Shown here in pieces: positions 7,578-42,873 of a stretch of 64,000 bases of DNA. The translations under genes and the position numbers were made by a program. How positions within the stretch are numbered: the first letter of the stretch is position 1; each line of letters opens with the position of its first letter. The stretch is from Actinomycetota bacterium (lineage in GTDB: Bacteria > Actinomycetota > Actinomycetes > Propionibacteriales > Propionibacteriaceae), in assembly GCA_020161015.1 (NCBI GenBank), contig JAIUOT010000055.1, positions 124,001-188,000 on the forward strand, read 5' to 3'. A model generated the notes under the pieces. The model ran no database searches, was not told the DNA's origin, and saw nothing but the letters and a program-made list of their open reading frames with translations.

Positions 7578-9577
7578 TCGCCTGCCTCTGGGGTGACGGG
7601 GCCGCCGTCGCGTGCCGGTGCGGTGGTCGAGGCCCGGCGGCGCACCTGGCGGATGCGCCAGGCGGTGGCACCCACCAGCACCAGCGTCGACACCCCGACG
7701 ATGATCCAGGCCACCACGCCGAGGTCGGTGATCTCGACGGTGATCGCGATGTCGGGCGTCACCCGCCGTCCGCTCTCTGTGGCGACGTAGGCCCGGGCGG
7801 TGACCAGCCCGTTCGAGGTGGCCTCCGGGCGCACGTTCACCGTCACGCTCTGGTCGGGCTCCACGGTCACGACCTCCGACGGCGGGACGGTGAGCCGCAG
7901 TTCGTTGGCCGTGGTCACCCGCACCTGCACGCGGATGGGCTCGGTGAGGTTGTTGGTGACCGTCACCGGGAACTGGTTCGTGCGCGAGGACATCACGAAC
8001 CGCGGGCTGGCGTCGAGGTGCACCGACCGTCCGACCTCGGGCAGGCTGACGAGCCGGGAGAGGCCGCGCAGGTGGGCGTCGAAGCCGGTCGTGTCGCCCA
8101 CCCAGGCCGACGATGCCGCCCGCGACACCGCGGCGTCCGACTGGGCCGGGAGGCTGGAATCGGGGGCGAGCTCTGCGAAGGCGGTGAAGTCGCTCTCGAG
8201 CCGGCCGAGCTCCTCGAACGCCTCGGTCGGCAGCCGCGCGGGACGGGCGGACGCGAGCCCGACCGTGCTCACGCCCGGCGTCGACTCCAGGAGTTCGTCG
8301 AGGCTGCGGCGCACCAGCCAGCTGCCCATCGCCGCCTCGTCCTGCTCGACGTCGGCAGGGGTGCGCAGCAGGCGGACCTCGCCGCGCGCGCCGGCGACCA
8401 CGGACGTGGCCAGGGCGTACTGGCGGCGGAGGTTCTGCGGCGCGTCCGTGGTGCCCGGAAGCGCGCCGGACGCCCCCAGGACGGGCGGGTGGCCGGGTGT
8501 GCCGGCCTGGAGGGCGCCGGCCGCGACGGTGTTGGTGGCCACGACCGCGTCCGGGTCGGAGGAGGCGATGAGGTCGTAGGTCGCCGTGGTGAGCTGCGTG
8601 CCGGCGGGCACGACGACCAGCGGCAGGTCATCGAGGCCGGACACCTTCGCCGCGGCACGCTCGGAGCGGGCGACGACGAGCTCGTCGCCGGCCACCCTCG
8701 CCCCGGTGAGGTCGGGGTTGGCGAACAGCGTCCGTCCGCCGAACCGATTCTCCAGGCCCTCGAAGCGCGCCAGCCAGGCCTTGGCGGCGTCCTGGCCGGT
8801 GCCGGCGACGGTGGTCTCGCCGGAGACGACCTGGTAGCCGTCCGCCATGTCGCGCACCTCGTCGAGGAGGGCGGGGTCGATCAGCCAGTTCATGCCCGGG
8901 CGCGCGGCGGCGTCCAGCAGGGTGCCCAGGCGGCCGGTCAGGTCCTGGGCCAGGGAGTCGTTGCGGAAGAGGTTGTCGACGAGCTTGGTGGGCGGGTCGG
9001 TCAGGAGCACGACGGAGGTGACCGGCACCTTCTCGGTGCCGGGGATGTTCACGAAGGTGCGCAGCTCGCCCATGCTGCGGAAGTTGGCGGTGGCGCCCGA
9101 GTCGGTGTTGGCGATCACGTCCGCGCCGAAGGGGAAGGCGGCGCCGCGCACGTCGAAGCCCAGCTCGCCGATCGTGGCGCGCAGGGTGACCTGCTCGCTC
9201 TGTCCGGGGTTGAACGCCTCCGCGGAGGTGCTGACCACCACGTAGTGGTCGGAGCTGATCGGCAGCCGGGCGCCGAGCACCGTGCTGGTGCTTGCCCGCC
9301 GGAGCGTGGCGAGGTCGCGGATGGCGTCCCGGGAGCGCCACAGGATGGCCTGCACCCCGAAGGCGGGGACGCTGCCGGTGTTGGCCACCGTCCCGGACAG
9401 GGTGACGGTGTCGTCCTTGCCGTAGCCGGAGACCTTGAGCGCGGTCATGGTGAAGGTGAGCTCGGGCTCCGCGGCGTGCGCGGGGGACGGCGTGGCCAGC
9501 AGGAGGCCGGCGGTAGCGGCGAGACCGGCCAGCAGGGACGCCACGGCACGACGCCTGTGCCTGGAGCTGCCGATCAC
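7574..9577 (-). CDS. DUF6049 family secreted/membrane protein, MurJ partner gene
   Basis: A 667-residue actinobacterial protein of the DUF6049 family, which is commonly encoded next to murJ in this phylum; its function is unknown. A signal peptide (RRRAVASLLAGLAATAGLLL then ATPSPAHA) leads into a large extracellular region with beta-rich segments, and a C-terminal membrane helix (VVAWIIVGVSTLVLVGATAW) is followed by a basic tail. I chose the GTG at 9577 because a TACGAT -10 box lies 6 bases upstream, which fits a leaderless transcript; an ATG at 9619 in the same frame would lie upstream of that promoter. The stop overlaps the murJ start (ATGA), so the two are coupled. It likely acts with MurJ at the cell envelope (inference from context). 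Confidence 0.85.
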   Translation of the reverse strand: MIGSSRHRRRAVASLLAGLAATAGLLLATPSPAHAAEPELTFTMTALKVSGYGKDDTVTLSGTVANTGSVPAFGVQAILWRSRDAIRDLATLRRASTSTVLGARLPISSDHYVVVSTSAEAFNPGQSEQVTLRATIGELGFDVRGAAFPFGADVIANTDSGATANFRSMGELRTFVNIPGTEKVPVTSVVLLTDPPTKLVDNLFRNDSLAQDLTGRLGTLLDAAARPGMNWLIDPALLDEVRDMADGYQVVSGETTVAGTGQDAAKAWLARFEGLENRFGGRTLFANPDLTGARVAGDELVVARSERAAAKVSGLDDLPLVVVPAGTQLTTATYDLIASSDPDAVVATNTVAAGALQAGTPGHPPVLGASGALPGTTDAPQNLRRQYALATSVVAGARGEVRLLRTPADVEQDEAAMGSWLVRRSLDELLESTPGVSTVGLASARPARLPTEAFEELGRLESDFTAFAELAPDSSLPAQSDAAVSRAASSAWVGDTTGFDAHLRGLSRLVSLPEVGRSVHLDASPRFVMSSRTNQFPVTVTNNLTEPIRVQVRVTTANELRLTVPPSEVVTVEPDQSVTVNVRPEATSNGLVTARAYVATESGRRVTPDIAITVEITDLGVVAWIIVGVSTLVLVGATAWRIRQVRRRASTTAPARDGGPVTPEAGE

Positions 9578-9583
9578 CGTCTT

Positions 9584-9589
9584 ATCGTA
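9584..9589 (-). promoter_or_regulatory. -10 box, leaderless promoter of DUF6049-murJ
   Basis: TACGAT on the minus strand, followed by 6 bases and then the GTG start at 9577. This spacing puts the transcript start at or next to the start codon. Confidence 0.55.
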
Positions 9590-9688
9590 CGGGGCGCCGG
9601 TCGGCCCCCGTCCCCGCACCCGCCCGGCCCGGCGCGGGTTCCTCGCGGTGCGGGCCGGCGCGCGACCCGGCCGCGGGGGGCGGGCCGG

Positions 9689-9694
9689 TAGAGT
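9689..9694 (+). promoter_or_regulatory. -10 box, leaderless promoter of cca
   Basis: TAGAGT lies 8 bases before the GTG start at 9703, and no Shine-Dalgarno sequence is visible, which fits leaderless transcription. Confidence 0.5.
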
Positions 9695-9702
9695 ACGCGG
9701 TC

Positions 9703-11196
9703 GTGCCCCCGGTGACCGAAGAGCAGCGCGCAGCGCTGGACGACGTGCTGGCCGCAGGCCCGAAGGTCCGGCGACTCGCCCGCCAGTTCGAGCGCGCCGG
9801 CCACGAGCTGTACCTCGTCGGCGGGTCCGTGCGCGACGCGCTGATGGGGCGCCTGGGACACGATCTGGACTACACCACCTCCGCGCGCCCGGACGAGATC
9901 GAGGCGCTCGTGCGGAAGGTCACGCACGCCGTCTGGGATGTGGGCCGCGCCTTCGGCACGATCGCGTGCCGGATCACCGAGGACGACGGCACCGACTGGC
10001 AGGTGGAGATCACCACCTTCCGGGCCGACACCTACGCCGACCACACCCGCAAGCCGGACGTGGTCTTCGGCGACCATCTCGGCGGCGACCTCGTGCGTCG
10101 CGACTTCACCGTCAACGCGATGGCCCTGCGCACCACCGACGGCGCGCTGCTCGACCCGTTCGGCGGACTGGGTGACCTGCGGGCAGAGGTGATCCGCACC
10201 CCCGCCGCTGCGGAGCTGTCGTTCTCCGACGACCCGCTGCGGATGATGCGCGCCGCGCGGTTCACGTCCCAGCTCGGCTTCCGTCCCGACCCGGACGTGG
10301 TGCGGGCGATGACCCAGATGGCGTCCCGGATCACGATCGTCTCCGCGGAGCGGATCCGCGACGAGCTGGTCAAGCTGCTGCTCACCGACAACCCCCGGCC
10401 GGGCCTGGACCTGCTGGTGCAGACCGGGATCGCCGACATCGTGCTGCCGGAGCTGCCCGCCCTGCGGATGGAACGCGACGAGCACAACCGCCACAAGGAC
10501 GTCTACGAGCACACCCTCACCGTGCTCGACCAGGCGATCGAGCTGGAGAGGCTGCGTGGGCACGCGCCCGACATCGTCAACCGCCTCGCCGCGGTCTTCC
10601 ACGACATCGGCAAGCCGCGCACGCGGCGCTTCGAGCCCGGCGGAAAGGTCTCCTTCCACCACCACGACGTCGTCGGGGCGAAGATGGCCGCCAAGCGGAT
10701 GCAGGCCCTGCACTTCTCCTCGGAGGAGACGAAGGCCGTGGCCACGCTCGTGGAGCTGCACCTGAGGTTCCACGGCTACGCCGAGGGCGAGTGGACGGAC
10801 TCCGCGGTGCGGCGCTACGTCCGCGACGCCGGCGACCAGCTCGAACGGCTGCACATCCTCACCCGCTCGGACTGCACGACCCGCAACCAGCGCAAGGCGC
10901 AGAACCTGCGCCGCGCGTACGAGGAGCTGGAGTGGCGGATCGACGAGCTCGCCCAGCGCGAGGAGCTGAACGCCATCCGTCCCGACCTCGACGGTACGCA
11001 GATCATGGAGCTGCTCGGAATCCCCGAGGGGCGGGAGGTCGGGCAGGCCTACCGGTTCCTGATGGAGCTGCGCATGGAGGAGGGTCCGCTCGGGCAGGAG
11101 CGGGCCACCCGCGAGCTGCTCGCCTGGTGGGCGGAGCGGCACCCCGGGGACGGCGCCACGGCGTCCGGGACCCCCGCGGCGGGCGGCGATGACTGA
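9703..11196 (+). CDS. cca: CCA tRNA nucleotidyltransferase
   Basis: Adds or repairs the 3' CCA end of tRNAs. The 497-residue protein has the class II nucleotidyltransferase head with GGSVRDALMG (40-49) and the metal-binding pair D54/D56 in HDLDYTT, the RRDFTVNAMA motif (142-150), an RNA/ATP-binding segment with DPLRMMRAARF, and a C-terminal HD domain (H300-D301 in AVFHDIGKPR) typical of bacterial CCA enzymes with phosphohydrolase activity. The start is a GTG with a -10 box 8 bases upstream. In many actinobacteria cca sits divergent from the DUF6049-murJ pair near the origin, and that arrangement is kept here. The 3' end overlaps the next gene by 8 bases. Confidence 0.95.
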   Translation: MPPVTEEQRAALDDVLAAGPKVRRLARQFERAGHELYLVGGSVRDALMGRLGHDLDYTTSARPDEIEALVRKVTHAVWDVGRAFGTIACRITEDDGTDWQVEITTFRADTYADHTRKPDVVFGDHLGGDLVRRDFTVNAMALRTTDGALLDPFGGLGDLRAEVIRTPAAAELSFSDDPLRMMRAARFTSQLGFRPDPDVVRAMTQMASRITIVSAERIRDELVKLLLTDNPRPGLDLLVQTGIADIVLPELPALRMERDEHNRHKDVYEHTLTVLDQAIELERLRGHAPDIVNRLAAVFHDIGKPRTRRFEPGGKVSFHHHDVVGAKMAAKRMQALHFSSEETKAVATLVELHLRFHGYAEGEWTDSAVRRYVRDAGDQLERLHILTRSDCTTRNQRKAQNLRRAYEELEWRIDELAQREELNAIRPDLDGTQIMELLGIPEGREVGQAYRFLMELRMEEGPLGQERATRELLAWWAERHPGDGATASGTPAAGGDD

Positions 11197-11869
11197 TCCG
11201 GGGGTCCGGCCGGAGGCGCTGGGCCTCCCGCGCCCGTCCGGGGTGGTGTTCGACTGCGACGGCCTCCTGCTCGACACCGAGCCGTGCTGGACGGTCGCGG
11301 AGACCGCGGTGTTCGCCACCCGCGGCCTGCCGTACGGGCCGGAGCAGAAGGCCCTGTTCATCGGACGCAGCGTGCCGGGGTCGGTCGAGCTGATGGCCTC
11401 GATCTTCGGCGAGGAGGGCAACGAGGAGGCGATCCTCGCCCAGCTGCTCGACGCGATCGGCGACGTGATCGCCACCAGCGCCGAACCCATGCCGGGCGCG
11501 CTCGAACTCGTGGAGCTGCTGTCCGGGCGGCTGCCGATCGGCGTGGCGAGCAACTCGCCGCGGTTCGTCCTGGATGCGGCGCTGGGCAGGGCGGGGCTGC
11601 GCGACGCGTTCGGCGCCGTGGTGGCCGCCGACGAGGTGCCGGTGCCCAAGCCCGCCCCGGACCTGTACCTGTCCGCCTGCCGCCTCCTGGGCGTCCCTGC
11701 GGTCGGGGCGGTCGCGCTGGAGGACACCGCCACGGGCACCGCCGCGGCGCACGCCGCGGGCCTGCGGGTGATCGGCGTCCCCTCGCCCGAGGCCGGCGAA
11801 CTCGGCGCGGACTGGCTGCTGCCCGCGCTCGACGACCCGCGGCTCCTCGCCTGGGCGTCCTCGCTCTGA
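11189..11869 (+). CDS. HAD-superfamily phosphatase (beta-phosphoglucomutase-like)
   Basis: A 226-residue haloacid-dehalogenase phosphatase. Motif I is VVFDCDGLLLDTE with nucleophile D22 and acid/base D24; motif II is the S in GVASNSP; motif III is the K in VPVPKPAPDLYL; motif IV is ALEDTATG. The DGxxxDTE form and an alpha-helical cap between motifs I and II place it in the subgroup that includes beta-phosphoglucomutases and small sugar-phosphate phosphatases. The substrate cannot be told from sequence. It overlaps cca by 8 bases and is probably co-transcribed with it. Confidence 0.88.
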   Translation: MTDPGVRPEALGLPRPSGVVFDCDGLLLDTEPCWTVAETAVFATRGLPYGPEQKALFIGRSVPGSVELMASIFGEEGNEEAILAQLLDAIGDVIATSAEPMPGALELVELLSGRLPIGVASNSPRFVLDAALGRAGLRDAFGAVVAADEVPVPKPAPDLYLSACRLLGVPAVGAVALEDTATGTAAAHAAGLRVIGVPSPEAGELGADWLLPALDDPRLLAWASSL

Positions 11870-11909
11870 GACCACCGCACGTCCCCGCGGGACCCTGCCT
11901 GGAGGAATA

Positions 11910-32568: not shown

Positions 32569-35019
32569 TCACGCCGCGGGGAAGGTGTCCGAGCCCGCCG
32601 GATCCGCCCCGTTTCGAGCGCGCCATGGCGAGCCGAGGACGACGAACGGCGAGCCCGGCCCGGCGGCGGCGAGGGCCTCGTCGCTGGGCAGCCCGCGACG
32701 CAGGCCCTGGTGGTAGGCGGCCATCACCGCTGCGGTGGTGTCGTCGGCCACCGGCGCGACGGCTGCCACGACCGAGCCGACCCCGAGTGAGAGCAGCGTG
32801 TCGGCGAGTCCGAGGGGCTCGTCGCCAGGACGCACCTGGGCCGTCGCGACGTCGCAGGCCGACAGCACGACGTGTCGCGCCCGCACCCGCCCGGCGGGCA
32901 ACTCGTGGGCGAAGACCTCGCCGTCGGCCATGCGCAACGAGGAGAACAGCGGGCTGGCCGCCCGGTGCTGCCCGTGCGCCGCCACGTGCACCACGTCCGC
33001 CCCCTCGAGCGCTGCGACGAGGTCGGAAGAACCCGCCTGCACCGCCAGCCGGGCCGACGGCCAGGCTGCCGCGACACGGCGTCCTTCCGCGTCGGCGTGG
33101 GTGAGCCCGGGACCGGTGAGCACCTGCACCGCCGGACGGGCGGTCACGCTCCGCCCCGCGGCCCACTCGGTCACCGAACGGGCGACGGTCACCGGGACGC
33201 CGCCGAGCGTGGGCAGCAGCCCCCACGGCACCGACGCCACCGCGTGGCTGCCGATCACCACGAGCCCGGTCGACGGCCCCTGCCGCCACGGCCCGAGGAC
33301 CACGTCGTCCAGCCAGCCGAGCCCGGCGGCCAGCGAAGACGCGATGGCGGCGCCCAGCGGGGCGGGCGGCTGGTGGGCTGCGGCGCGCAGGTCGGCCCGC
33401 AGCCGCCGGGTCACCTCGAGGCACTCGCCGAGGCCGGCCAGCCGGGCCAGCCGGCGGCGGCCCCCCATCACGGCCACGCCCCACAGCGCCCCCTCGTGCG
33501 CGAACAGCCGCAGCAGGGCTCGTCCCTCCGCGGCCAGGGTGTCGAGCGCCTCCTCCAGCGTGGGCAGCGGGTGGGACGTGGCGTCCGCCTGGCGCTGCGC
33601 GAGCCCCAGGTCGAGCAGCTCCCGCTGGAGGCGGTCGACCTCCGCGCGGCGCCCGGCGGCGCCCGGCCCGGACGGCTCGTCCCGCAACGCCTGCGAAAGC
33701 GCCCGCAGCCGGCGGGTCAGCGCTGCCTGGCGGGGGTCGTCGGGCGGACGGACCACCGGGAGTCCCCGGCTGCTCCACCGCTCCAGGGACGCCAGCACCG
33801 CGCCCGGCCCGCGGCCGACCGCGAGCGCGGTGTCGAGGCCGGCCAGCCGGAGGCTGAGCACCTTGCGGGCCGCGCGCGAGTCCAGCGACGCACTGACCGC
33901 CTGGCTGGCCGCCAGGTCCGAGGCCGCGGCGGCCAGGCGGCGTCCCGGCGATCGCCCGGACGCCACGTCGGTGAGCGCTGCGGCGTAGGCGTGGCGCAGG
34001 TGCACGACCAGCCCGAACGAGTCGGACGGGTAGCGGCGCAGCGCCGCGCGGGCGACGTCCGGCCGTCCCAGGCGCGCGGCGGCCTCGGCCGCCACGGCGA
34101 TGCTGCGGGCGCGCAGTTCCGCGTCCCCGAGGTCGACGGCCACCGCCTCGTCGGCCAGCGCCCCGTCGAGCACCCGGGCGAGGCCCCGGCCACGGCTGAG
34201 GGCGCAGTCGAGCACGGTGAGGTCGGCCCGGGCCGCCGGCGCGGCGGCCCCCAGCCGCGCGAACCGCTCGCGGGACGCGCGGGCGGCTGCCCCGGCCTCC
34301 GCGACCTCGCCGGCCAGGCGCAGGATGCGGGCGCGCTCGAGGTCGATCTCCGCGCGAAGGAGCTGGTCCTGCCGCGGACGGCAGGCGCGCCGGGCGCGGT
34401 CGAGCGCCGACAGGGCCTCGTCCAGCAGGCCCGCCTCTCCCAGCACCCGGCCCAGGTCGAGCAGGGACGGCCCCCGGAAGACGTCCGCGGGCATCTCCTC
34501 TGCCGCGGCCATCGTGGCCAGGGCAGCGGGCAGGTCGCCGGTGAGGTAGAGGGCGTAGCCGAGGTTGTGCTCGGCCATGAACAGGTGCCGGGGGTCGCCG
34601 GCCTCCGCGGCCAGGGCGGACGCGCCGCGGAAGGCCGCCGCCGCCTCCTCCGGGCGTCCCAGCTCGACGAACACCATGCCGCGGTTCAGCAGCATCGCGC
34701 AGCGCTCGACGGTGGTGAACCACTGCGGCTCGTCCACCACGACGGCCAGCTCCGCGGCCGCCGTGGCGAAGTCGCCGCACCGGCCCAGGATGTTCCCGCG
34801 CTGGCAGCGCCACCGGGCCAGCAGCTCCGGGTCGTCCCCGGCGATCCGCCGGGCGTCGGCGAGGTGCGGCTCTGCCGCCACCAGCCCGCCGGTCGCCAGC
34901 TCCGACAGGGCGAGCGTGAGCAGGCACGACACCCGCACGACGTCCACCTCGCGCGGTGCCGGGGTGTCCACGGGTGGCAGCAGCGACAGCGCGGTCCGCA
35001 GCGTCCGGGCGGCGCGCAC
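32569..35019 (-). CDS. TPR-CHAT caspase-like protease
   Basis: A protein of at least 816 residues: helical repeats of TPR type (about 1-480, e.g. HNLGYALYLTGDLPAALATM) followed by a C-terminal CHAT domain, a caspase-like cysteine protease fold. The catalytic pair is visible as His682 in VVHVAAHGQH and Cys722 in VVLSACDVA (counted from the GTG at 35019). The frame stays open upstream to the previous gene, and the extra residues (PAQALARARDLRLASLADNA) continue the TPR pattern, so translation probably begins about 29 codons earlier at a non-AUG codon near 35106, overlapping the stop of the gene before. Last gene of the S8-sigma operon; no signal peptide, so it acts in the cytoplasm. Targets unknown. 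Confidence 0.88.
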   Translation of the reverse strand: MRAARTLRTALSLLPPVDTPAPREVDVVRVSCLLTLALSELATGGLVAAEPHLADARRIAGDDPELLARWRCQRGNILGRCGDFATAAAELAVVVDEPQWFTTVERCAMLLNRGMVFVELGRPEEAAAAFRGASALAAEAGDPRHLFMAEHNLGYALYLTGDLPAALATMAAAEEMPADVFRGPSLLDLGRVLGEAGLLDEALSALDRARRACRPRQDQLLRAEIDLERARILRLAGEVAEAGAAARASRERFARLGAAAPAARADLTVLDCALSRGRGLARVLDGALADEAVAVDLGDAELRARSIAVAAEAAARLGRPDVARAALRRYPSDSFGLVVHLRHAYAAALTDVASGRSPGRRLAAAASDLAASQAVSASLDSRAARKVLSLRLAGLDTALAVGRGPGAVLASLERWSSRGLPVVRPPDDPRQAALTRRLRALSQALRDEPSGPGAAGRRAEVDRLQRELLDLGLAQRQADATSHPLPTLEEALDTLAAEGRALLRLFAHEGALWGVAVMGGRRRLARLAGLGECLEVTRRLRADLRAAAHQPPAPLGAAIASSLAAGLGWLDDVVLGPWRQGPSTGLVVIGSHAVASVPWGLLPTLGGVPVTVARSVTEWAAGRSVTARPAVQVLTGPGLTHADAEGRRVAAAWPSARLAVQAGSSDLVAALEGADVVHVAAHGQHRAASPLFSSLRMADGEVFAHELPAGRVRARHVVLSACDVATAQVRPGDEPLGLADTLLSLGVGSVVAAVAPVADDTTAAVMAAYHQGLRRGLPSDEALAAAGPGSPFVVLGSPWRARNGADPAGSDTFPAA

Positions 35020-35102
35020 GGCCCGCCCGGCGGCGTTGTCCGCCAGGCTGGCGAGCCGCAGGTCCCGCGCGCGGGCCAGGGCCTGTGCAGGAACCGTCGT
35101 CG

Positions 35103-35561
35103 TCAGATCTCCATCGACGGCGTGATCACCGGACGGTAGCCCTCGCGGCGGACCACGAAGTGCGCCCGCCCGCGGGGGACGCCCTCGACCGAGAAGCGCC
35201 CGGCCTCGTCGGCCACGGTGGTGCGGGTCAGCCCCTCACCGACGACGTCCACCTCTGCACCGGGGCTGGTCACCCAGCCGTCGATGCGGACGTGGTGGGC
35301 GGAGGCGGCCGTGGTCACCATCAGGCTCAGCGTCCCGCTGGTGAAGGTGACCGAGTCGGTCTCCTCACCGCGGACGCCGACCAGGTCGCCGCGGCTGAGC
35401 TCGGCGATGTCGGCCTCCAGCTCGGCCACCGCCAGGGCGAAGTCGATGCGCTCCAGCAGGCCCGGCGGCACCGGGTCGATGGTCTCGTACAGCGTCGCCA
35501 GGCCGGCGAGGATCCGATCGTCCACCTCGTCGATGAGGCCGTCAGGGAACTCTTCGGGCAT
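35103..35561 (-). CDS. Small carboxypeptidase-regulatory-like domain protein
   Basis: A 152-residue protein with an acidic helical N terminus (MPEEFPDGLIDEVDDRILAG, then VPPGLLERIDFALAVAELEA) and a C-terminal beta-sandwich resembling the carboxypeptidase regulatory-like fold: VDVVGEGLTRTTVADEAGRF then SVEGVPRGRAHFVVRREGYR. It lies one base after the sigma-factor stop and overlaps or abuts the CHAT gene. The helical N-terminal part recalls proteins encoded beside ECF sigma factors, so it may be a soluble anti-sigma or adaptor (inference only). Confidence 0.75.
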   Translation of the reverse strand: MPEEFPDGLIDEVDDRILAGLATLYETIDPVPPGLLERIDFALAVAELEADIAELSRGDLVGVRGEETDSVTFTSGTLSLMVTTAASAHHVRIDGWVTSPGAEVDVVGEGLTRTTVADEAGRFSVEGVPRGRAHFVVRREGYRPVITPSMEI

Positions 35562-35562
35562 G

Positions 35563-36132
35563 TCAGGCCTCCCATCTGGGGTCGGAGAGCAGGATCGTGC
35601 GGAGCTTGGCCAGGCACCGTCCGCGCGTGGGACCGATGCTGCCCACGGGCATGCCGAGGCTGGCCGCGACCCCCGCGTAGTCGGGAGCCGGGGCGAAGGC
35701 GATCACGCGGAGCAGGGCCCGGCAGCGTTCGGGCAGTTCGTCGACGTGCGCCCACAGCACCCGCTGCTGGTCGCCGGAGACGGCGGCGTCCTCCGGCGTG
35801 ACGGCGTCGGTGACGTCGGGCACGCCGGACTCCGGCGTGGTCTCCCGGCCGGCGAGGCGCAGCAGCCGCCACGTCTCGCGCTTCACGGTCACCACGAGCC
35901 AGGAGACGACCCCCCGGGGGTCGGTGATGGTGTCCGCGGCGTCCACCAGGCGCAGCCACGCGGTCTGGATGGCGTCCTCCGCGATCTCGCGGGGCGCGTG
36001 CTGGGAGCGGGCGGTGTGCCACAGCAGCGGCGTCAGCAGGGCGACCAGTTCGCGCAGCTGCTCTCGGTCCCCGTCCCGGTAGGCGACGAAGGCCTGCGCT
36101 GCGCGCGCGCCGAGCGAGGCGGTGGCACTCAC
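35563..36132 (-). CDS. ECF-type RNA polymerase sigma factor
   Basis: A 189-residue sigma-70-family factor with region 2 (LVALLTPLLWHTARSQHAPR, EIAEDAIQTAWLRLVD, then RGVVSWLVVTVKRETWRLLR) and region 4 (LPERCRALLRVIAFAPAPDY then AGVAASLGMPVGSIGPTRGR). It starts with GTG overlapping the S8 protease stop (GTGA), so it is made with the protease. It probably directs this operon and perhaps the divergent protease/lanthionine operon; a shared promoter motif cannot be confirmed by eye. Confidence 0.9.
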   Translation of the reverse strand: MSATASLGARAAQAFVAYRDGDREQLRELVALLTPLLWHTARSQHAPREIAEDAIQTAWLRLVDAADTITDPRGVVSWLVVTVKRETWRLLRLAGRETTPESGVPDVTDAVTPEDAAVSGDQQRVLWAHVDELPERCRALLRVIAFAPAPDYAGVAASLGMPVGSIGPTRGRCLAKLRTILLSDPRWEA

Positions 36133-37724
36133 GGCCGGTCCAGCCCGAGGACGGACGACAGCGCGGCCCAGCCGCGGTCGAGCATCGAGGACAGGTCGAC
36201 CGCGTCCGTGCCCTTCTCCAGCAGCGCCCGGGCCAGCTCGCCGGCGAGCACCGGGGTGGCGAAGGAGGTGCCGCTCCACACGCCGAAGCCACCGGAGTAG
36301 TCGTCGCGGTCGATCGTGCTGCGGTCCTTCGGGGGTTGCCCGACGCCCGCGTGCAGGGCCCGCCGCTGGGCGGGGGTGAGGGACGCGTCCCCGTCGACGC
36401 GGGACGAGGACTGCACCCCGGCGTTCATGTTGACCGGCAGCGTCGAGACGATGGCGGCGCCGGTGCGATAGGTGGTCACCCACTCCCCGGCGTTGGAGAA
36501 CAGCGAGACCGACGCCCCGTTGGGGTTCAGCGAGCCCACGCTCACCAGCGGCAGCGCGGACGCCTCCGCCGGCCCGCCGGCGAAGCCGGCCGGCAGCATC
36601 GGCTCGGTCGTGGCGTCGTTGCCGGCGCCGGCGACGACGAGCACGCCGGCTCGCCCGAGGTCGCGCAGCACCTGCGCGATGCTGGCGTCGTCGGCGTCCG
36701 CACCCTCCTCGTGGTAGTAGCCGACCGACAGGGTCAGCACGTCCACTACACCGGCGGCGTCGCCGGACTCGAGGGCGCCGAGCTGCCGTTCGAGCAGGTC
36801 GTGCAGGTCGTCGAGCAGGACGTCCTCCTCCATGACCCCGGAGGACGCCATCACCGCGTGCGCCTCCAGCCGTGCGGACGGGCAGGCCTGCCGGACGATG
36901 CCGGCGATGAACGTCCCGTGCCCCGCGAGTCGCTGGATGTCGCCGGTGAGGTAGTCGGTGACGCCGTCGTCGACGTCCGCCACAGGGGAGCCCTTCACCT
37001 CGACGCCGGAGGCCGGCGGCGGCGGGAAGGCGAGCGGCTGGGCGGAGAGGTCCGGGAACCAGGGGTGGACGCCGATGCCGGTGTCGGGCATGACCACCAC
37101 GGGCGGCCGGGCGACCTTCGGCGCGGTGAGCGCCGGGTCGGCCACCACCAGCGCGACCGGGGAGCGGCCGCCCAGGCCGGGCACGCCGTACTCGCCGGGC
37201 GTGCTGGAGGTACCGATGCCGCTCCAGTAGCCGCCGATCCCGCTCCAGTAGCCGCCGATGCCGCTCCAGTAGCCCCCGATCCCGCTCCAGTAGCCGCCCA
37301 CGCCGGTGAGCGTGGTCGCGGCGAGAACGTGCACCAGCTCGAACTCGCCGGCGAGCTCGGGGAACTCGTCGGCGATGTGCTGGAGCGCCAGCCAGGCGTC
37401 CGGAGGTGCGGCCAGCCTGCCCTCGGCCACCGAGAGGGTGAGCACCTGGGGACGCCGGGACTCCAGCTTCACGTCCAGGCGGTACTCCCGGCGCGGCTCG
37501 GGCTTGCGGACCGGCGAGAGCGTCCAGCCGAAGCGCTCGGCCAGCAGGGCGGCGACCTTCGGCTCGATGCCCTGGTCGGCCTGGTCCCCCCGGACCAGCA
37601 GCTTCTCGGCCACGTACACGGTGGGCCGCAGCTGCGCGGGCGCCCTGCGACGGTCGCCGTCCTCCCATCTCCGCGCCCGCACGGGCCGCTGCACAGCGGT
37701 GGCAGGGTCAAGCACACGGATCAC
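36129..37724 (-). CDS. Intracellular subtilisin-like (S8) protease with GYWSGIG repeats
   Basis: A 531-residue S8 protease without a signal peptide, so cytoplasmic. The triad is Asp214 in VVMPDTGIGVHPWF, His269 in LAGHGTFIAGI and Ser487 in WSGTSFATPVLAG; the oxyanion Asn lies in VVAGAGNDA. Between an N-terminal domain (about 1-140) and the catalytic domain are four exact GYWSGIG units (144-171). I chose the GTG at 37724 because GAGGGAGG lies just upstream; an ATG 49 codons earlier gives a basic, non-conserved extension. First gene of an operon with sigma factor, small beta protein and CHAT protease, all with overlaps or 1-base gaps. Confidence 0.9.
   Translation of the reverse strand: MIRVLDPATAVQRPVRARRWEDGDRRRAPAQLRPTVYVAEKLLVRGDQADQGIEPKVAALLAERFGWTLSPVRKPEPRREYRLDVKLESRRPQVLTLSVAEGRLAAPPDAWLALQHIADEFPELAGEFELVHVLAATTLTGVGGYWSGIGGYWSGIGGYWSGIGGYWSGIGTSSTPGEYGVPGLGGRSPVALVVADPALTAPKVARPPVVVMPDTGIGVHPWFPDLSAQPLAFPPPPASGVEVKGSPVADVDDGVTDYLTGDIQRLAGHGTFIAGIVRQACPSARLEAHAVMASSGVMEEDVLLDDLHDLLERQLGALESGDAAGVVDVLTLSVGYYHEEGADADDASIAQVLRDLGRAGVLVVAGAGNDATTEPMLPAGFAGGPAEASALPLVSVGSLNPNGASVSLFSNAGEWVTTYRTGAAIVSTLPVNMNAGVQSSSRVDGDASLTPAQRRALHAGVGQPPKDRSTIDRDDYSGGFGVWSGTSFATPVLAGELARALLEKGTDAVDLSSMLDRGWAALSSVLGLDRP
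37212..37295 (-). repeat. Four 21-bp tandem repeats coding GYWSGIG
   Basis: Four consecutive 21-base units within the S8 protease gene, differing only at third codon positions, so the peptide is conserved while the DNA has begun to diverge. Confidence 0.9.
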
Positions 37725-37896
37725 GGGAGCCTCCCTCGTCGTACCGGCCGGTCTCAGCGTAGAAGTCGGCCTGCGCACTTTCCTAGAGGCATCCTTCCCC
37801 CCTCCTGATACACCGCTGCCGCCCGGTATCACCCGTCGTGCACCCGGGTCGGATGGCCGACGACCCCACACCGAGGGGGAGGGAAGGGATCAGGCC

Positions 37897-39654
37897 ATGA
37901 ACAACGAGATTCGGGCCGCCATCCGACCGGTCAAGGCCAGGGTGGAGGACGAGCTCATCGCGCGTCCCGGCGTCAACGCCGTGGACATCGCGGAGAAGAT
38001 CACCGACGGCAGGCCGACAGGCGAGTTGTCGATCGTGGTCTACGTCGACAAGAAGGTGCCGCCCGGGCGGCTGTCGAAGGCCAACGCCATCCCGGCGGAG
38101 ATCGACGGCATCCGGACCGACGTGCAGGAGATGAGCGTCGAGCTCCAGTCGCCCCGCTGGGAGCGCCTGGGGGCCGACGCCCTCGTCGACGCGGGCACCT
38201 ACACCCCGCTGCTGGGCGGGATCTCCATGGGACCATCGCGCAGCTTCTACCTCACGCCGCCGGAGGTCGAGACCCCCGGCAACTACGTGATGGTGGGCAC
38301 GCTCGGCGCCCTGGTCAGGGACAACGCCACCGGCGACACCATGGCGCTGTCCAACTTCCACGTGGCGGCCGTGGACACCGGGTGGTCGACGTCCGACCGC
38401 CAGTGTCAGCCGGGCCGCGTGGACGGGGGCAGCCCGCCCGGGGACGAGTTCGGCACGCTCGCCCGGGCGGTCATCAGCGAGCACGTGGACGGGTCGGTGA
38501 CCCGGCTCGACGCCGGGCGCGCGTGGAAGGCTGAGGTGACCGGGATCGGCGCGGTGGCGGGCACGGCGGCCGCCGTCCTGCACCAGGCCGTCCGCAAGCG
38601 CGGGCGCACGACCGAGCTCACCTACGGCACCGTGGAGTCGCTCGACTTCACCGTGTCCGTCGACTACGGGGACGGGGTGGGGCTGCGGACGCTGAAGAAC
38701 CAGCTGCGCATCGCCACCGACACCACGCGGTCGACGCGCTTCTCCGACCACGGGGACTCGGGATCGGTGATCATGACCGACGACCGGCACGTCGTGGGAC
38801 TGCTGTTCGCCGGTTCGACGGACGGGGCGAACACCTTCGCCAACCCGATCGCCGACGTCCTCGGCGAGCTGGACGTGACCATGCTCACCGGAGGGACGTT
38901 CACACTGACCTCGCCGGTGATCTGCGAGCGGTTCACCCGGGTGGTCTGTCCGTCCACGCCGGTGCTCTGCCCGACGCGGGCTGCGACCTGCTTCACCCGG
39001 CCGGCCACGGGCTGCGTGAACACGCTGGCCGTGGTCTGCCGGAGCCTGCTGACGATCTGCCCGACCCGGACGATCGTCTGCCCGACGATGCCGGTGGTCT
39101 GCAACGACATCACCCGGACGCCGATCTGCGTCGTGTCCGGGCCGGTGTGCGGTGGGCCGCCCGGCGGGCCGGTCGAGTTCCCCGTCGACGGCTTCGACGG
39201 CGAGCACCTCGACTACGGGTACGGCGAGGCGGACGCGTACTCGGCGGGCTACGCCGAGGGCTACGCCGCGGCGAGCGGGGCTGCCGCACCGGCCGCGCAG
39301 GAGGCCGGGGACGCGCAGGGCATCGGCGACACCCTGGTGCCGCGGCTGTCGTGGGCGGTCTGCCCGAGCATCGCCTGCCCGTCCGTGGTGACGTGCCCGA
39401 CCCGGCTGTGCCCGACGCGGGTGTGCCCCACCCGCGCCTGCCCGACCCTGGTGTGCCCCACCAGGGCCTGCCCGACGTTGGCGTGCCCGACGCTGGCGTG
39501 CCCGACGCTGGCCTGCCCGACGTTGGCGTGCCCGACGTTGGCGTGCCCCAGCCTGGCCTGCACCCCCGGTGACCCGGGTGTGACCGGCCCGGCGATGGAT
39601 GCCTCGTACTGGGCCGCCTACCTCGCGGGCCTGGAACAGGGCACCGGACAGTAG
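37897..39654 (+). CDS. Trypsin-like protease with Cys-Pro-Thr repeat tail, candidate lanthionine substrate
   Basis: A 585-residue protein with four parts. Residues 1-85 are a small domain also found alone in the next gene. Residues ~100-330 form a trypsin-like serine protease with His155 (LSNFHVAAV), Asp205 (VTRLDAG) and Ser288 (HGDSGS). Residues 343-418 hold 11 Cys spaced 7-9 apart. After an acidic Gly/Tyr/Ala linker (430-480) comes a second Cys block, 489-555, with 14 Cys; from C500 to C555 they recur every 5 residues as C-P-T-[RL]-x. The Thr is always three residues before the next Cys (TxxC). No signal peptide. The ATG at 37897 has GAGGGGGAGGGAAGGG upstream; open frame before it is non-coding. 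The downstream kinase, HopA1 lyase and LanC cyclase suggest that the tail is converted to (methyl)lanthionine rings. Confidence 0.88.
   Translation: MNNEIRAAIRPVKARVEDELIARPGVNAVDIAEKITDGRPTGELSIVVYVDKKVPPGRLSKANAIPAEIDGIRTDVQEMSVELQSPRWERLGADALVDAGTYTPLLGGISMGPSRSFYLTPPEVETPGNYVMVGTLGALVRDNATGDTMALSNFHVAAVDTGWSTSDRQCQPGRVDGGSPPGDEFGTLARAVISEHVDGSVTRLDAGRAWKAEVTGIGAVAGTAAAVLHQAVRKRGRTTELTYGTVESLDFTVSVDYGDGVGLRTLKNQLRIATDTTRSTRFSDHGDSGSVIMTDDRHVVGLLFAGSTDGANTFANPIADVLGELDVTMLTGGTFTLTSPVICERFTRVVCPSTPVLCPTRAATCFTRPATGCVNTLAVVCRSLLTICPTRTIVCPTMPVVCNDITRTPICVVSGPVCGGPPGGPVEFPVDGFDGEHLDYGYGEADAYSAGYAEGYAAASGAAAPAAQEAGDAQGIGDTLVPRLSWAVCPSIACPSVVTCPTRLCPTRVCPTRACPTLVCPTRACPTLACPTLACPTLACPTLACPTLACPSLACTPGDPGVTGPAMDASYWAAYLAGLEQGTGQ
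39394..39561 (+). repeat. 15-bp tandem array coding C-P-T-x-x
   Basis: Eleven consecutive 15-base units within the protease gene, consensus TGCCCGACGYTGGCG, encode CPTRL, CPTRV, CPTRA, CPTLV, then mostly CPTLA, ending CPSLA-C. The last five CPTLA units are nearly identical in DNA, pointing to recent expansion. Confidence 0.92.
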
Positions 39655-39667
39655 TGGTTCGCACGAC

Positions 39668-39699
39668 GGGGGCCCCGGCGCGAGATCGCCGGGGCCCCC
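39668..39699 (+). terminator. Hairpin between protease gene and modification genes
   Basis: Perfect 13-bp stem (39668-39680 with 39687-39699) and a CGAGAT loop, 14 bases after the protease stop. No T-run follows. Partial read-through here would give more protease than downstream enzymes, a usual pattern in RiPP operons (inference). Confidence 0.7.
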
Positions 39700-39751
39700 T
39701 CGTATCAGGCGACGGCACGTCCGCTCCCATAACCGACCCGAAGGAGGAGCC

Positions 39752-39997
39752 ATGGCCCTTTCCGCTGCCGACGCCGAGCGGGTACGCCCGGTCAAGGAGC
39801 AGGTGGAGGACGCGTTCCTCGCGCTGCCCGGCGTCACCGGCGTGGACATCGGCGAGGTCGGGACCGTCGCGGGGATCGTGGTCTACGTCGACCCGGCGAC
39901 CGCCGCCGCCGACCGGGCGCGCGTCCCCGGCGAGGTCTCCGGCGTACCGGTGGAGGTCCGGGAGCTGCGCGTCGAGCTCCAGGGAGGGGCGTCGTGA
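39752..39997 (+). CDS. Stand-alone copy of the protease N-terminal domain
   Basis: An 81-residue acidic protein. Its RVRPVKEQVEDAFLALPGVT matches RPVKARVEDELIARPGVN at the start of the trypsin-like protein, and the match continues through GVDIGEVGTVAGIVVYVD and IVVYVDKK to the final VEVRELRVELQ versus VQEMSVELQ. It is therefore the same domain on its own. It contains no Cys, so it is not the thioether substrate. The ATG at 39752 has AAGGAGGAGC 1 base further upstream, a strong ribosome site, and the stop overlaps the kinase start (GTGA). It may recruit the modifying enzymes or the protease, like a shared docking domain (inference). Confidence 0.85.
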   Translation: MALSAADAERVRPVKEQVEDAFLALPGVTGVDIGEVGTVAGIVVYVDPATAAADRARVPGEVSGVPVEVRELRVELQGGAS

Positions 39998-40941
39998 CGA
40001 GCGCCGCCGCCGTGCTGGCCCAGGCCGTGCGCACCGGGCTGGTGGACGCGTCCGCTGCGCTGGCGGGCGTGGTGACCGTGACCCGGATCGACGGGTCCAA
40101 CCCCGTGCTGCGCCTCGCGCGGGACGGGCGTCCGGTGGCGTTCGTGAAGGGGACGGGTGAGGCGGCGCTGCTGAACGGCGAGGACACGGTGGCCCGCGAA
40201 CGTGCGGTGGTCAGCCGCCTGGCCGCGTCCGGCACCGCGCCGCGGGCGCTCCCGCAGGGCACCCCGCACGAACTGTGGCTGTCGGCGGTCGAGGGACGCT
40301 CCCTCGCCGAGCTCTCGCAGTCCGGCGACGTCGGGGCGCTGAGCGAGGCGTTCGCGTCCGTCGGGGTCGCGCTGGCTGGCCTGCACCGCCTGCGCGCCGG
40401 ATCGTCCACACCGGCGATGGACCTGCCCTGGCCGATGCGGGACGCGCTCCCGCCCCACATGCACTCCGCCCGGCACCACGAGGTGCCCGCCCGCGTGCTC
40501 GAGACGGCGGCCGACCTGGCCGACGTGGCCGTCGCCGCGAAGGCCGCCTGGCGGGCCGACGGCTGGGCCCACGGGGACGTCAGCGCGACGAACGTGCTGG
40601 TCGGGCCGGACGGCGCCCGGCTCATCGACTGGGAGTCCGCCGGCCGGGGCGACCCGTCCTGGGACCTGGCCGGTGCCCGCGTCGTGGCCGACCTGGTCGC
40701 CACCGGCTGGAGCGACCTCGCCTGGCGACGCCTCCACGCGGCCTACCGCGCCGCGGGAGGTCCCGCTCCGGAGCCGGCCCACGCGCTGTGGTGCGTGCGG
40801 CTGCTCGTGGCGGCCTACCAGCAGGCCGTCGGCGTCCTGGTCGGCGGGGGGACACCGGACGCCGACGGCAGCGTGACGACCCTGCTCGACCAGGCCCGCC
40901 GGGCGGCAGGGGCGCACCGGAGGGAGTGCGCCCATGCATGA
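39994..40941 (+). CDS. APH-family phosphotransferase, LanK-like kinase
   Basis: A 315-residue kinase of the aminoglycoside-phosphotransferase/choline-kinase fold. Lys52 in VAFVKGTGE and Glu69 fit the ATP-binding Lys-Glu pair; the catalytic loop is HGDVSATN (H193, D195, N200) and the metal Asp212 lies in RLIDWES. Kinases of this fold (for example LxmK of class V lanthipeptides and TvaC of thioamitides) phosphorylate Ser/Thr of precursor peptides. It starts with GTG overlapping the preceding stop and overlaps the HopA1 gene by 8 bases. Proposed role: phosphorylating Thr/Ser in the Cys-rich tail of the trypsin-like protein. A small-molecule kinase role is possible but would not explain the neighbours. 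Confidence 0.85.
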   Translation: MTSAAAVLAQAVRTGLVDASAALAGVVTVTRIDGSNPVLRLARDGRPVAFVKGTGEAALLNGEDTVARERAVVSRLAASGTAPRALPQGTPHELWLSAVEGRSLAELSQSGDVGALSEAFASVGVALAGLHRLRAGSSTPAMDLPWPMRDALPPHMHSARHHEVPARVLETAADLADVAVAAKAAWRADGWAHGDVSATNVLVGPDGARLIDWESAGRGDPSWDLAGARVVADLVATGWSDLAWRRLHAAYRAAGGPAPEPAHALWCVRLLVAAYQQAVGVLVGGGTPDADGSVTTLLDQARRAAGAHRRECAHA

Positions 40942-41761
40942 GCAGGCGATCCGCGAGGCGCACCGGGTGTGGCAGGCCGGGGGGGACCTGTACGCCGGCT
41001 GGTACGCCGCGGCGCGGGAGGGGGTGGAGGCCCCGGCGCCCGCGCCGGGGGCTCCCCCGCTCGCCGGCCAGCTCCGGGTGGCGCACAGCCGCCGCTGGGC
41101 CCCGGGCTGCCGGGTCACCGGCACCGGCCTGGCCGGCACCATCGTCGTCACCGGGCCGGACGGGGCGTCCCGTGCGGTGTCCCTGGGCGACTACTCGGTG
41201 CCCGGGCGACCCGGGCGTCCCGCCAGGACCGGGGACGTGGTGGTCGCCGTCGCCCGTGCGGGCGGCTACGAGGCCGAGGGCTGGTGGCGGGCCTGGGGTG
41301 GCGGCTGGGACGTCACCAGCGCCCGACCCGACGTGACCCGGGTGTACCTCGCCGTGCTGCCGCACCGGGTGCTCGAGCTCGCCCGCCGGCTTCCGGAGGC
41401 GCTGGACGCCGCCGGGCTGGCCTGGTCGCTGAAGATCGCGGCGCAGCCGGGGATGCTCGGCCGTCCCGACGCCGTGGTGCTCTACGTCCGCGACGCCGAC
41501 CGCGACGCCGTGTTCGCCCTGCTGCCGCCGCTGGCCGACCTCGTCGACCCGGCCGGTGCCGTGCCGCTGGCCGCGCCGCTGGTGCCCGGCATGTGCTGGG
41601 CAGAGGATCCGGGCACGGAACAGAGCTTCGGCCAGCAGCGGTGCGAGGTCCTCGCCGACGGCTTCGCCGCCGGTGGCGACCCGCTCGACGCCGCGGCGAC
41701 GGCCTTCCGTGCCGCCGGGCTCGACCCGGACCGTCCCCATCTTCGAGGAGGACGACGATGA
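40934..41761 (+). CDS. HopA1-family protein, LanY-like phospho-Ser/Thr lyase
   Basis: A 275-residue protein of the HopA1 family, named for a Pseudomonas type III effector but common in RiPP clusters. Family features: RVYLAVLPHRVLELARRLPE, LAWSLKIAAQP with the family Lys, RPDAVVLYVRDADRDAVFAL, and the C-terminal VPGMCWAEDP...EQSFGQQRC block. In class V lanthipeptide and thioamitide pathways the HopA1 protein removes phosphate from phospho-Ser/Thr to give dehydroamino acids. Placement between a kinase and a LanC-type gene, with overlaps on both sides (8 and 4 bases), supports that role here. Confidence 0.85.
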   Translation: MHEQAIREAHRVWQAGGDLYAGWYAAAREGVEAPAPAPGAPPLAGQLRVAHSRRWAPGCRVTGTGLAGTIVVTGPDGASRAVSLGDYSVPGRPGRPARTGDVVVAVARAGGYEAEGWWRAWGGGWDVTSARPDVTRVYLAVLPHRVLELARRLPEALDAAGLAWSLKIAAQPGMLGRPDAVVLYVRDADRDAVFALLPPLADLVDPAGAVPLAAPLVPGMCWAEDPGTEQSFGQQRCEVLADGFAAGGDPLDAAATAFRAAGLDPDRPHLRGGRR

Positions 41762-42873
41762 CCGCGGAGCCGGTCGGCGTCCCGCTGGTGGAGCGTGCGC
41801 TCGCCCGGTGCGTGGACGCCCTGCAGACGTGCGCAGTGCCCCAGGGGAACCAGTGCGGATGGGGGACCTGGGAGCTCGACCAGAGGGGGGAACCGTTGGC
41901 GTTGAGCGCTGGTCGCAGCGCGCTCTACGACGGCAACGCGGGCATCGCCTGGGCACTGCGCACCCTCGGCCGCGATGTCGGACGGGCCGCCGGCGCGACG
42001 GAGGGCGCGCCCGGCCTGCTCGGCGGGTCCACCGGGGTGGACCTCGCGGCCGCAAGGACGTGCTCCGCACCCGTCGGGGGCAGGGGCTTCGATCTCGGCG
42101 GGGGATTGGCCGGCGACCTGCTGGCGCTGGTCCGCACGGGGTCGAGGGAGGTGGCCGCGGTCGTCGACGCGCTCGTCGACGGCGCGCGCCGCGACGGCGA
42201 AGGCGCGTGCTGGCCCGAGGAGGAGGCGCTGTGCGGACTGGCGCACGGGGTCTCCGGGGTGGTGCTCGCGCTCGCCGAGGCCGCGGCCGCCGTCCCCGAG
42301 GTCGCCGGACGGGCGCTGCCGCTGGTGGCGGCGGGCCTGCGCTGGGAGGCGGCCTGGTTCGATCCCGTCACCGGGGGGTGGCCGGACCTTCGGGGGGACG
42401 GTCCGCCCACCTACCCGGTGATGTGGTGCCACGGCGCCGCCGGCATCGCCGCGGTGCGGCTGCGGCTGCTCCAGCTCGGGCTCGCCCTCGACTACCCGGC
42501 GGAGGCGATCGCCGCGGAGGCCCACGCCGGTGTGCTGGCCTGCGGGCGCGAACTCACCCGGCTCGCGGCGCTGGCGCGCGCCGGTCGGCTGGCCGCCGTC
42601 CCGGGCGGGCTCACGCTGTGCCACGGTGCCGGCGGCGCGCTCGACGTGCTCGTGCTCGCCGCCGAGGTGTTCGGCGAACCCGCGCACCTCGAGGCCGCGC
42701 GGCGGATCGCGTCCGACCTGCTGGCGACCGCTCCGGAGGACCCGCTGGACTGGCCGGGCGGCGTCCGCGCGGACGGCTGCCTCGGCCTGTTCGTCGGCAC
42801 CGCCGGGACCGCCCTGCTGCTGGCCCGCCTGCTGGACCCGACGATCGGGTCGCTGTCGCTCCTCGCCTTCTGA
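41758..42873 (+). CDS. LanC-type lanthionine cyclase
   Basis: A 371-residue alpha-alpha-barrel protein of the lanthionine synthetase C family. The repeated barrel motifs ALYDGNAGIAWAL, CGLAHGVSGVVLALAEAA, PVMWCHGAAGIAAVRL, LTLCHGAGGALDVL and GLFVGTAGTALLLARLL are all present. The zinc ligands are C224 (WCHG), C288 and H289 (LCHG), with His163 in GLAHG as the general acid/base seen in NisC. LanC enzymes activate a Cys thiolate on zinc for addition to dehydro-Ala/Thr. It is the last gene of the operon and starts ATGA-coupled to the HopA1 gene, preceded by GAGGAGGACG. Confidence 0.92.
   Translation: MTAEPVGVPLVERALARCVDALQTCAVPQGNQCGWGTWELDQRGEPLALSAGRSALYDGNAGIAWALRTLGRDVGRAAGATEGAPGLLGGSTGVDLAAARTCSAPVGGRGFDLGGGLAGDLLALVRTGSREVAAVVDALVDGARRDGEGACWPEEEALCGLAHGVSGVVLALAEAAAAVPEVAGRALPLVAAGLRWEAAWFDPVTGGWPDLRGDGPPTYPVMWCHGAAGIAAVRLRLLQLGLALDYPAEAIAAEAHAGVLACGRELTRLAALARAGRLAAVPGGLTLCHGAGGALDVLVLAAEVFGEPAHLEAARRIASDLLATAPEDPLDWPGGVRADGCLGLFVGTAGTALLLARLLDPTIGSLSLLAF

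Follow-up and report, generated by a model that had tools for sequence, protein, structure and literature searches.

The 64,000-nucleotide stretch analyzed here, which we call the window, comes from contig JAIUOT010000055.1 of a member of the Propionibacteriaceae (positions 124,001–188,000). At 37897–42873 it carries an operon in which a serine protease with a Cys-rich C-terminal tail is followed by an APH-type kinase, a HopA1-family protein, and a LanC-type cyclase, and it is the relationship between this tail and the three enzymes that concerns us. The initial annotation had placed at this locus a protease with two Cys blocks, an 81-residue protein, a hairpin between their genes, and the three enzymes; every gene was located as claimed, and the hairpin was confirmed by fold energy, a 116-nucleotide region folding at −61.1 kcal/mol (z −3.6). 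The last four genes overlap one another by 4–8 bases. The features of the locus are listed in window coordinates, and the loci and genomes compared with it carry our own L and G numbers.

37897..39654, plus strand: NAL1/trypsin-type serine protease of 585 amino acids with a C-terminal Cys/Thr tail, the proposed thioether substrate (open reading frame; H155, D198, and S288 invariant)
38923..39150, plus strand: first Cys/Thr array, 11 Cys, residues 343–418 (Cys count; Ser/Thr–Cys pairing statistic)
39217..39279, plus strand: linker/helix after the first array, GYGEADAYSAGYAEGYAAASG, a looser form of the C-terminal motif (low-confidence model)
39361..39561, plus strand: second array, Cys-every-fifth, 14 Cys, residues 489–555 (Cys count; sub-threshold NF038108 match)
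39598..39639, plus strand: C-terminal helix motif DASYWAAYLAGLEQ, proposed enzyme-recruiting follower (motif in 19/19 tailed and 0/16 tailless homologues)
39668..39699, plus strand: strong GC hairpin between the protease and 81-residue genes, with no T run (fold energy)
39752..39997, plus strand: 81-residue paralogue of the protease N-terminal domain (homology)
39994..40941, plus strand: APH-type kinase (LanK-like), proposed Ser/Thr kinase (Pfam; K52, H193, D195, N200, and D212 invariant)
40934..41761, plus strand: HopA1-type phosphoserine/phosphothreonine lyase (LanY-like) (Pfam; R136, K167, R177, and Y184 invariant)
41758..42873, plus strand: LanC zinc cyclase (Pfam; C224, C288, H289, and H163 invariant)

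Three parts make up the protease: an N-terminal domain, a protease domain of the NAL1/trypsin type, and a tail whose two arrays contain 11 and 14 Cys. Taken alone it gives no Pfam match above cut-off; among 35 homologous domains, matches at E ≤ 0.05 were obtained to Trypsin_2 (22), Nal1_C (17), and NAL1_N (17), and a profile of the family picks up the structures of NARROW LEAF 1 and streptogrisin. The catalytic triad residues His155, Asp198, and Ser288 are invariant across the 35 homologues. Judged by triad and domain matches, the protein is a NAL1/trypsin-type serine protease. Tailed members of the family are 456–585 amino acids long, and no signal peptide was seen on the window protease on inspection by eye. 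Twelve plasmid records contain distant matches to the protease domain (best 35.9% identity), and no stretch matching the protease patterns was found in viral contigs.

The 81-residue protein is homologous to the N-terminal domain of the protease, of which it is a paralogue. Among tailed loci, a separate gene of this kind accompanies only the two-array tails (the window, L007, and L024, with a fragment in L039). Weak matches to it (14–26 bits) also lie directly downstream of the protease in the distant tailless loci L079, L081, and L088, and it could therefore be a component of the protease module, perhaps an inhibitor acting in trans, rather than a partner of the second array. In three small genomes (L072, L073, and L074), a separate small frame resembling the N-terminal domain overlaps a tailless protease gene.

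All three enzymes look intact, as far as conserved residues can tell. Pfam E-values are 3.2e-17 (APH, kinase), 9.2e-21 (HopA1), and 2.6e-29 (LANC_like), and in all 16 sequences compared the kinase keeps K52, H193, D195, N200, and D212, the HopA1 protein R136, K167, R177, and Y184, and the cyclase C224, C288, H289, and H163; the first three of these last residues are the zinc ligands that had been assigned correctly at the outset. The HopA1-protein residues are spaced like R187, K219, R229, and Y236 of CaoY, the residues given for that lyase in PMC9486802, and in structure alignments judged by eye 4/4 match the solved lyase 9dk1 and 3/4 match HopA1 (4rsw). The best solved structure match of the LanC protein, the only one in its genome, is LicM2. 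The LxmK equivalog scores the kinase at 24 bits against a cut-off of 315, and the LanL equivalog gives 55 bits against a cut-off of 650.

A search for the same neighbourhood in other genomes, as the initial annotation had suggested, yielded 19 nonredundant tailed loci (the window, L007–L009 from a family search, 14 from a genome scan that gave 17 loci, and L102 from a phylum search), in organisms that include Knoellia, Janibacter, Flexivirga, Nocardioides, Arthrobacter, Cellulomonas, and Tessaracoccus. Duplicates (L023, which encodes the same protein as L007, and L104/L044, with the tail of L024) were excluded from the tail, tree, and linkage counts, as was L039, whose reading frames are broken and in which pieces of the Cys array and all three enzymes are present. 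Kinase, HopA1, and LanC genes lie downstream in 17 of the 19 loci, counting L033, where LanC is truncated by the contig end; in the remaining two the contig stops inside the kinase gene (L026) or just after the kinase frame (L035).

The composition of the tails points to paired residues of the kind found in lanthipeptide cores. In 17 tails, 183 of 184 Cys have a Ser or Thr at least two residues upstream inside their own inter-Cys interval, whereas 1000 shuffles that left the Cys fixed averaged 137.8 and never exceeded 152. Ser/Thr occupies position −5 for 88/184 Cys (shuffle mean 35.6, z 10.7), is slightly enriched at −3 (z 2.3), and is depleted at −7 and −2. The pattern used for this statistic missed L035 and L102; with both added, 200 of 201 Cys in 19 tails are paired, the sole exception being the first Cys of L026. 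Because the tails are related, these z-values overstate independence, and when one of the six Knoellia/Janibacter tails is kept, 140/141 Cys are paired with z 9.9 at −5. Within those six tails the invariant columns are 7 of 9 for Cys, 6 of 18 for Thr/Ser, 4 of 11 for Arg/Lys, and 2 of 42 for other residues. Arg or Lys follows 140 of 312 Ser/Thr in the 17 tails, and the motif [ST]-[RK] a few residues before a Cys is frequent in tails outside the subgroup formed by the window, L007, and L024. The candidate core thus contains Ser/Thr paired with Cys, as a lanthipeptide core must. The CPT repeats noted originally do form a dense CPT/CPS repeat in the second array; this feature is restricted to the same small subgroup and is not general to the tails.

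The tails also differ along their length. In the 16 with a single array, the charge changes from basic in the array (+4 to +10) to acidic beyond the last Cys (−7 to −16), whereas the three two-array tails lack a basic array (−2 to +1). Lanthipeptides are described in PMC11251773 as having acidic leaders and basic cores, so that the acidic part there comes first. A C-terminal motif, [YF][WVI]x[GA]Yxx[AG][LI]E, is present in 19/19 tailed and 0/16 tailless homologues; given that the pattern was written after the tails had been viewed, and was somewhat looser in the script, only its absence from tailless homologues constitutes a test. The linker sequence GYGEADAYSAGYAEGYAAASG is not matched by the motif pattern in the window, whereas its counterpart in L007 is.

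The Cys-every-fifth spacing of the second array was also compared with NF038108 (CefA, a ribosomally synthesized and post-translationally modified peptide), which scores 21.6 bits, or 31.2 summed over neighbours in frame, against a curated cut-off of 30. Among 391 genomes of the order, 29 have a match and 7 exceed the cut-off. No kinase, HopA1, or LanC gene was found within about 1.5 kb on each side of 12 such loci (L011–L022), whose frames resemble simple-repeat or shadow frames, and this lead was dropped.

Further comparative evidence comes from relatives in which the tail is missing. The initial annotation had named relatives without the tail as an observation that would speak against modification of the protease. 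Five close ones exist, namely L036 (a Micrococcus metagenome-assembled genome), G315, G256, G267 (L052/L103), and G443, yet the HopA1 gene, present once in each of 6/6 tailed genomes, is found in 0/5 of theirs, and no kinase, HopA1, or LanC gene occurs in the stretches compared around their protease genes (9.3 kb only for G443). Because the tailless relatives also lack the enzymes, the observation turns into support. In a midpoint-rooted tree of 35 protease domains, selected for coverage (the weaker L054–L070 and L078–L098 were omitted except those named, and G267, with its split frame, enters the HopA1 count and stands outside the tree), the tail label requires two changes. The tailless L036/L045/L046 are nested in the tailed clade beside L031 from Arthrobacter (support 100/96), and we read the two changes as probably a single gain and a single event in which tail and enzymes disappeared together.

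Based on these patterns, it seems likely that the protease carries at its own C terminus the equivalent of a lanthipeptide core, which the kinase, the HopA1 protein, and LanC modify. The claim of the initial annotation that the three enzymes act on this tail thereby gains support from comparative genomics. Given that tail and enzymes are present or absent together in the bacteria compared, the protease itself is probably stapled with thioether rings. We propose that the kinase would phosphorylate Thr and Ser in the tail, that the HopA1 protein would eliminate the phosphate to leave dehydrobutyrine or dehydroalanine, and that LanC would then add the paired downstream Cys, so that (methyl)lanthionine rings, most commonly Thr-x4-Cys, would follow one another along the tail. 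The acidic region at the C terminus, where the helix motif is conserved, may recruit the enzymes and thus serve as a follower instead of a leader. The ringed tail could, more tentatively, be a payload that the protease carries and perhaps later releases, by analogy with family members that bear an endonuclease.

This last point bears on what becomes of the tail once rings have formed. One version of the proposal holds that it is a permanent structural element, such as a protease-resistant stalk or an oligomerization arm, and is never released. We consider this version quite possible, though short of the expected outcome: no signal peptide was seen, the C-terminal motif after the rings is conserved, and tailless relatives keep the protease domain. 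What argues against it is the nuclease found in the C-terminal slot of distant family members, an indication that this slot takes payloads. In L054 and L056 a NAL1-like protease domain is followed by a DNA/RNA non-specific endonuclease (Pfam), and three plasmid records are annotated as such an endonuclease under the protease match. Since the C-terminal slot can hold an effector, we weakly favor, by this analogy, a ringed payload over a permanent stalk, and a released ringed payload fits as well as the crosslinked cytoplasmic enzyme, as opposed to an antibiotic, that the initial annotation had considered. By eye, an endonuclease also lies behind the NAL1-like domain in L055, L057, and L059. The fullest form of the payload version is a self-carrying lanthi-protease in which the protease replaces the leader, up to about two dozen rings are installed under guidance of the follower helix, and self-cutting frees the payload; this remains a tentative model that we hold as possible and would not yet expect.

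Several observations weigh against tail modification or against parts of the scheme above. With only two changes in the tree, the co-occurrence of tail and enzymes rests on approximately one gain and one loss and not on many events. Two distant tailless homologues belong to genomes in which HopA1 occurs on another contig: in G699 (protease domain 134 bits) it is fused to LanC and accompanied by short precursors (L122), and in G582 (49 bits) it lies with a kinase gene at a contig end (L123). G734, whose protease match reaches 24 bits, also has a HopA1 match. The endonuclease-bearing homologues are distant (71–91 bits). The AlphaFold model of the protease is poor, with a mean predicted local distance difference test score of 48 and values of 24–31 over most of the tail, so that the follower helix is weakly supported; the helices that it places at 446–462 and 464–473 lie after the first array. 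Finally, the Cys of the tail might form disulfides or bind metal while the three enzymes act in trans.

That final possibility would make the tail an extension built on disulfides or bound metal and give the kinase, lyase, and cyclase another protein as their target; in its favor, Cys-rich tails commonly form disulfides or bind metal. We nonetheless consider it very unlikely. Neither role calls for a Ser or Thr to accompany almost every Cys, preferentially at −5; the close relatives without a tail also lack the enzymes, and a homology search of the window's own genome revealed no second array protein resembling the tail.

Slightly less likely still is that the locus is an ordinary lanthipeptide cluster whose short precursor gene was missed and whose protease is the leader peptidase. 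Related enzymes elsewhere are indeed accompanied by short precursors. A HopA1 profile matched in 13 of 392 genomes of the phylum, of which only the window and G647 are close, and a search of 147 genomes of the family found 5. Among the matching loci examined, in L010, of the same family (7818–11908), and in L122 (6390–10523), short Cys/Ser/Thr peptides precede a kinase and a fused HopA1–LanC protein, and in L010 an S8 protease lies downstream; in L126 (4476–8710), a Cys-rich protein (open frame of 221 amino acids, with a helical-looking C-terminal part) is encoded upstream of HopA1 and a kinase–LanC protein. With short precursors in such clusters, the protease here stands in the precursor slot. 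The initial annotation had seen no short precursor, and this held up: a BLAST comparison that took in 1806 small frames, from up to 4 kb around each of 16 operons, revealed no conserved precursor, although a fast-changing or more distant precursor could be overlooked in this way. The 16 small-frame clusters common to at least three genera, judged by the coordinates of up to six members per cluster, all lie over long genes or where the neighbouring operon has its sigma-factor gene, so that no conserved small frame is found outside long genes. Furthermore, the distance from protease stop to kinase start is −4 to 5 nucleotides in 13/16 loci, which leaves no room for a precursor between them, and 339–378 nucleotides in the other three because the 81-residue gene fills the space. 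A leader peptidase, moreover, would need no tail of Thr-paired Cys that disappears along with the enzymes. Among the named genes none for export or leader processing was seen, and no search was aimed beyond those genes.

Least likely of all is that LanC adds a small external thiol to dehydroalanine or dehydrobutyrine on the protease, much as mammalian LanCL enzymes are described in PMC9934072 as adding glutathione on proteins, since almost all tail Cys are matched in cis by a residue that could be dehydrated, a pairing that such a reaction does not require.

If the protease is the substrate, the system departs from those already described. Lanthionine chemistry is associated with short secreted peptides and, in the form of glutathione addition, with mammalian proteins. 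The operon looks as if a class V dehydratase had been joined to a LanC cyclase, to judge by families and residues: as with CaoK and CaoY of cacaoidin, there is a separate APH-type kinase and a HopA1-type lyase. However, class V clusters as defined in PMC9486802 have a second APH-type protein and no homologue of a class I–IV synthase, whereas the operon combines a single APH gene with a zinc LanC and has a protease instead of a short peptide as its proposed substrate. By that definition it falls outside class V, since it encodes a LanC protein and a single APH protein and the search for a short precursor found none. It differs from class IV (LanL) in that kinase, lyase, and LanC are three separate genes and not one polypeptide. 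The cyclase shares the LANC_like family, the Cys/His residues, and the catalytic His with the class I and II LanC proteins and LanM domains (NisC, CylM, and LicM2), whereas dehydration here would be carried out by kinase and HopA1 protein and not by LanB or LanM. The clusters of L010 and L122 have the same order of precursor, kinase, HopA1, and LanC, with HopA1 and LanC fused and a short precursor in the slot held here by the protease.

A core borne on a folded protein is known from borosins, where it is attached to the enzyme. Proteusins, in which the core is attached to a structured leader (PMC10858898), offer a second parallel; the chemistry in both is different, and the folded part here is a serine protease. 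With NAL1-type trypsin-like proteases the protein shares its protease and N-terminal domains (Nal1_C, NAL1_N, and Trypsin_2), whereas the 16 tailless homologues in the tree have no Cys tail and five of them or their close kin lack the enzymes. Mammalian LanCL likewise applies LanC chemistry to proteins, with external glutathione (PMC9934072) in place of the cis Cys proposed here. No description of a trypsin-type protease as a lanthipeptide precursor was found in the open-licence PubMed Central literature, judged by titles and abstract openings. Were the substrate indeed an enzyme, lanthionine chemistry would include a genetically encoded way to staple a large protein, a true LanC would be combined with a class V-type dehydratase, and a follower-guided system acting on up to 25 Cys would be available for engineering. 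Mining rules that require a short precursor, such as the limit of under 110 residues for precursor frames given as an example in PMC9486802, would overlook protease-substrate systems of this kind.

Next to the protease operon lies a divergent one on the minus strand (32569–37871) that encodes an S8 subtilase, a sigma-factor-like protein (by eye), a CarboxypepD_reg protein, and a TPR-CHAT protein. It adjoins the protease operon in 12 of the 19 tailed loci. S8 homologues occur in 36 of 147 genomes of the family; one of these is G142, which belongs to the same genus and in which no HopA1 was found. The S8/CHAT operon is a separate module. The subtilase was considered as an alternative substrate or obligate partner of the enzymes and rejected on three counts: it has 1–6 Cys in 11 relatives, it adjoins in 12/19 loci, and it occurs in 36/147 genomes versus 5/147 for HopA1.

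The S8 protein of the window (36129–37871) contains four tandem aromatic-Gly repeats of the form GGYWSGI, and those of 11/11 relatives contain tandem aromatic-Gly repeats that differ between species (for example GWGDGI, GYLQGV, and PFWGGH). Short words common to the S8 protein and the protease tail stood out only in L038, from Knoellia sinensis, where four GWGDGI units in the protease linker (9899–11476) are identical to the repeat unit of the divergent S8 neighbour (7998–9956).

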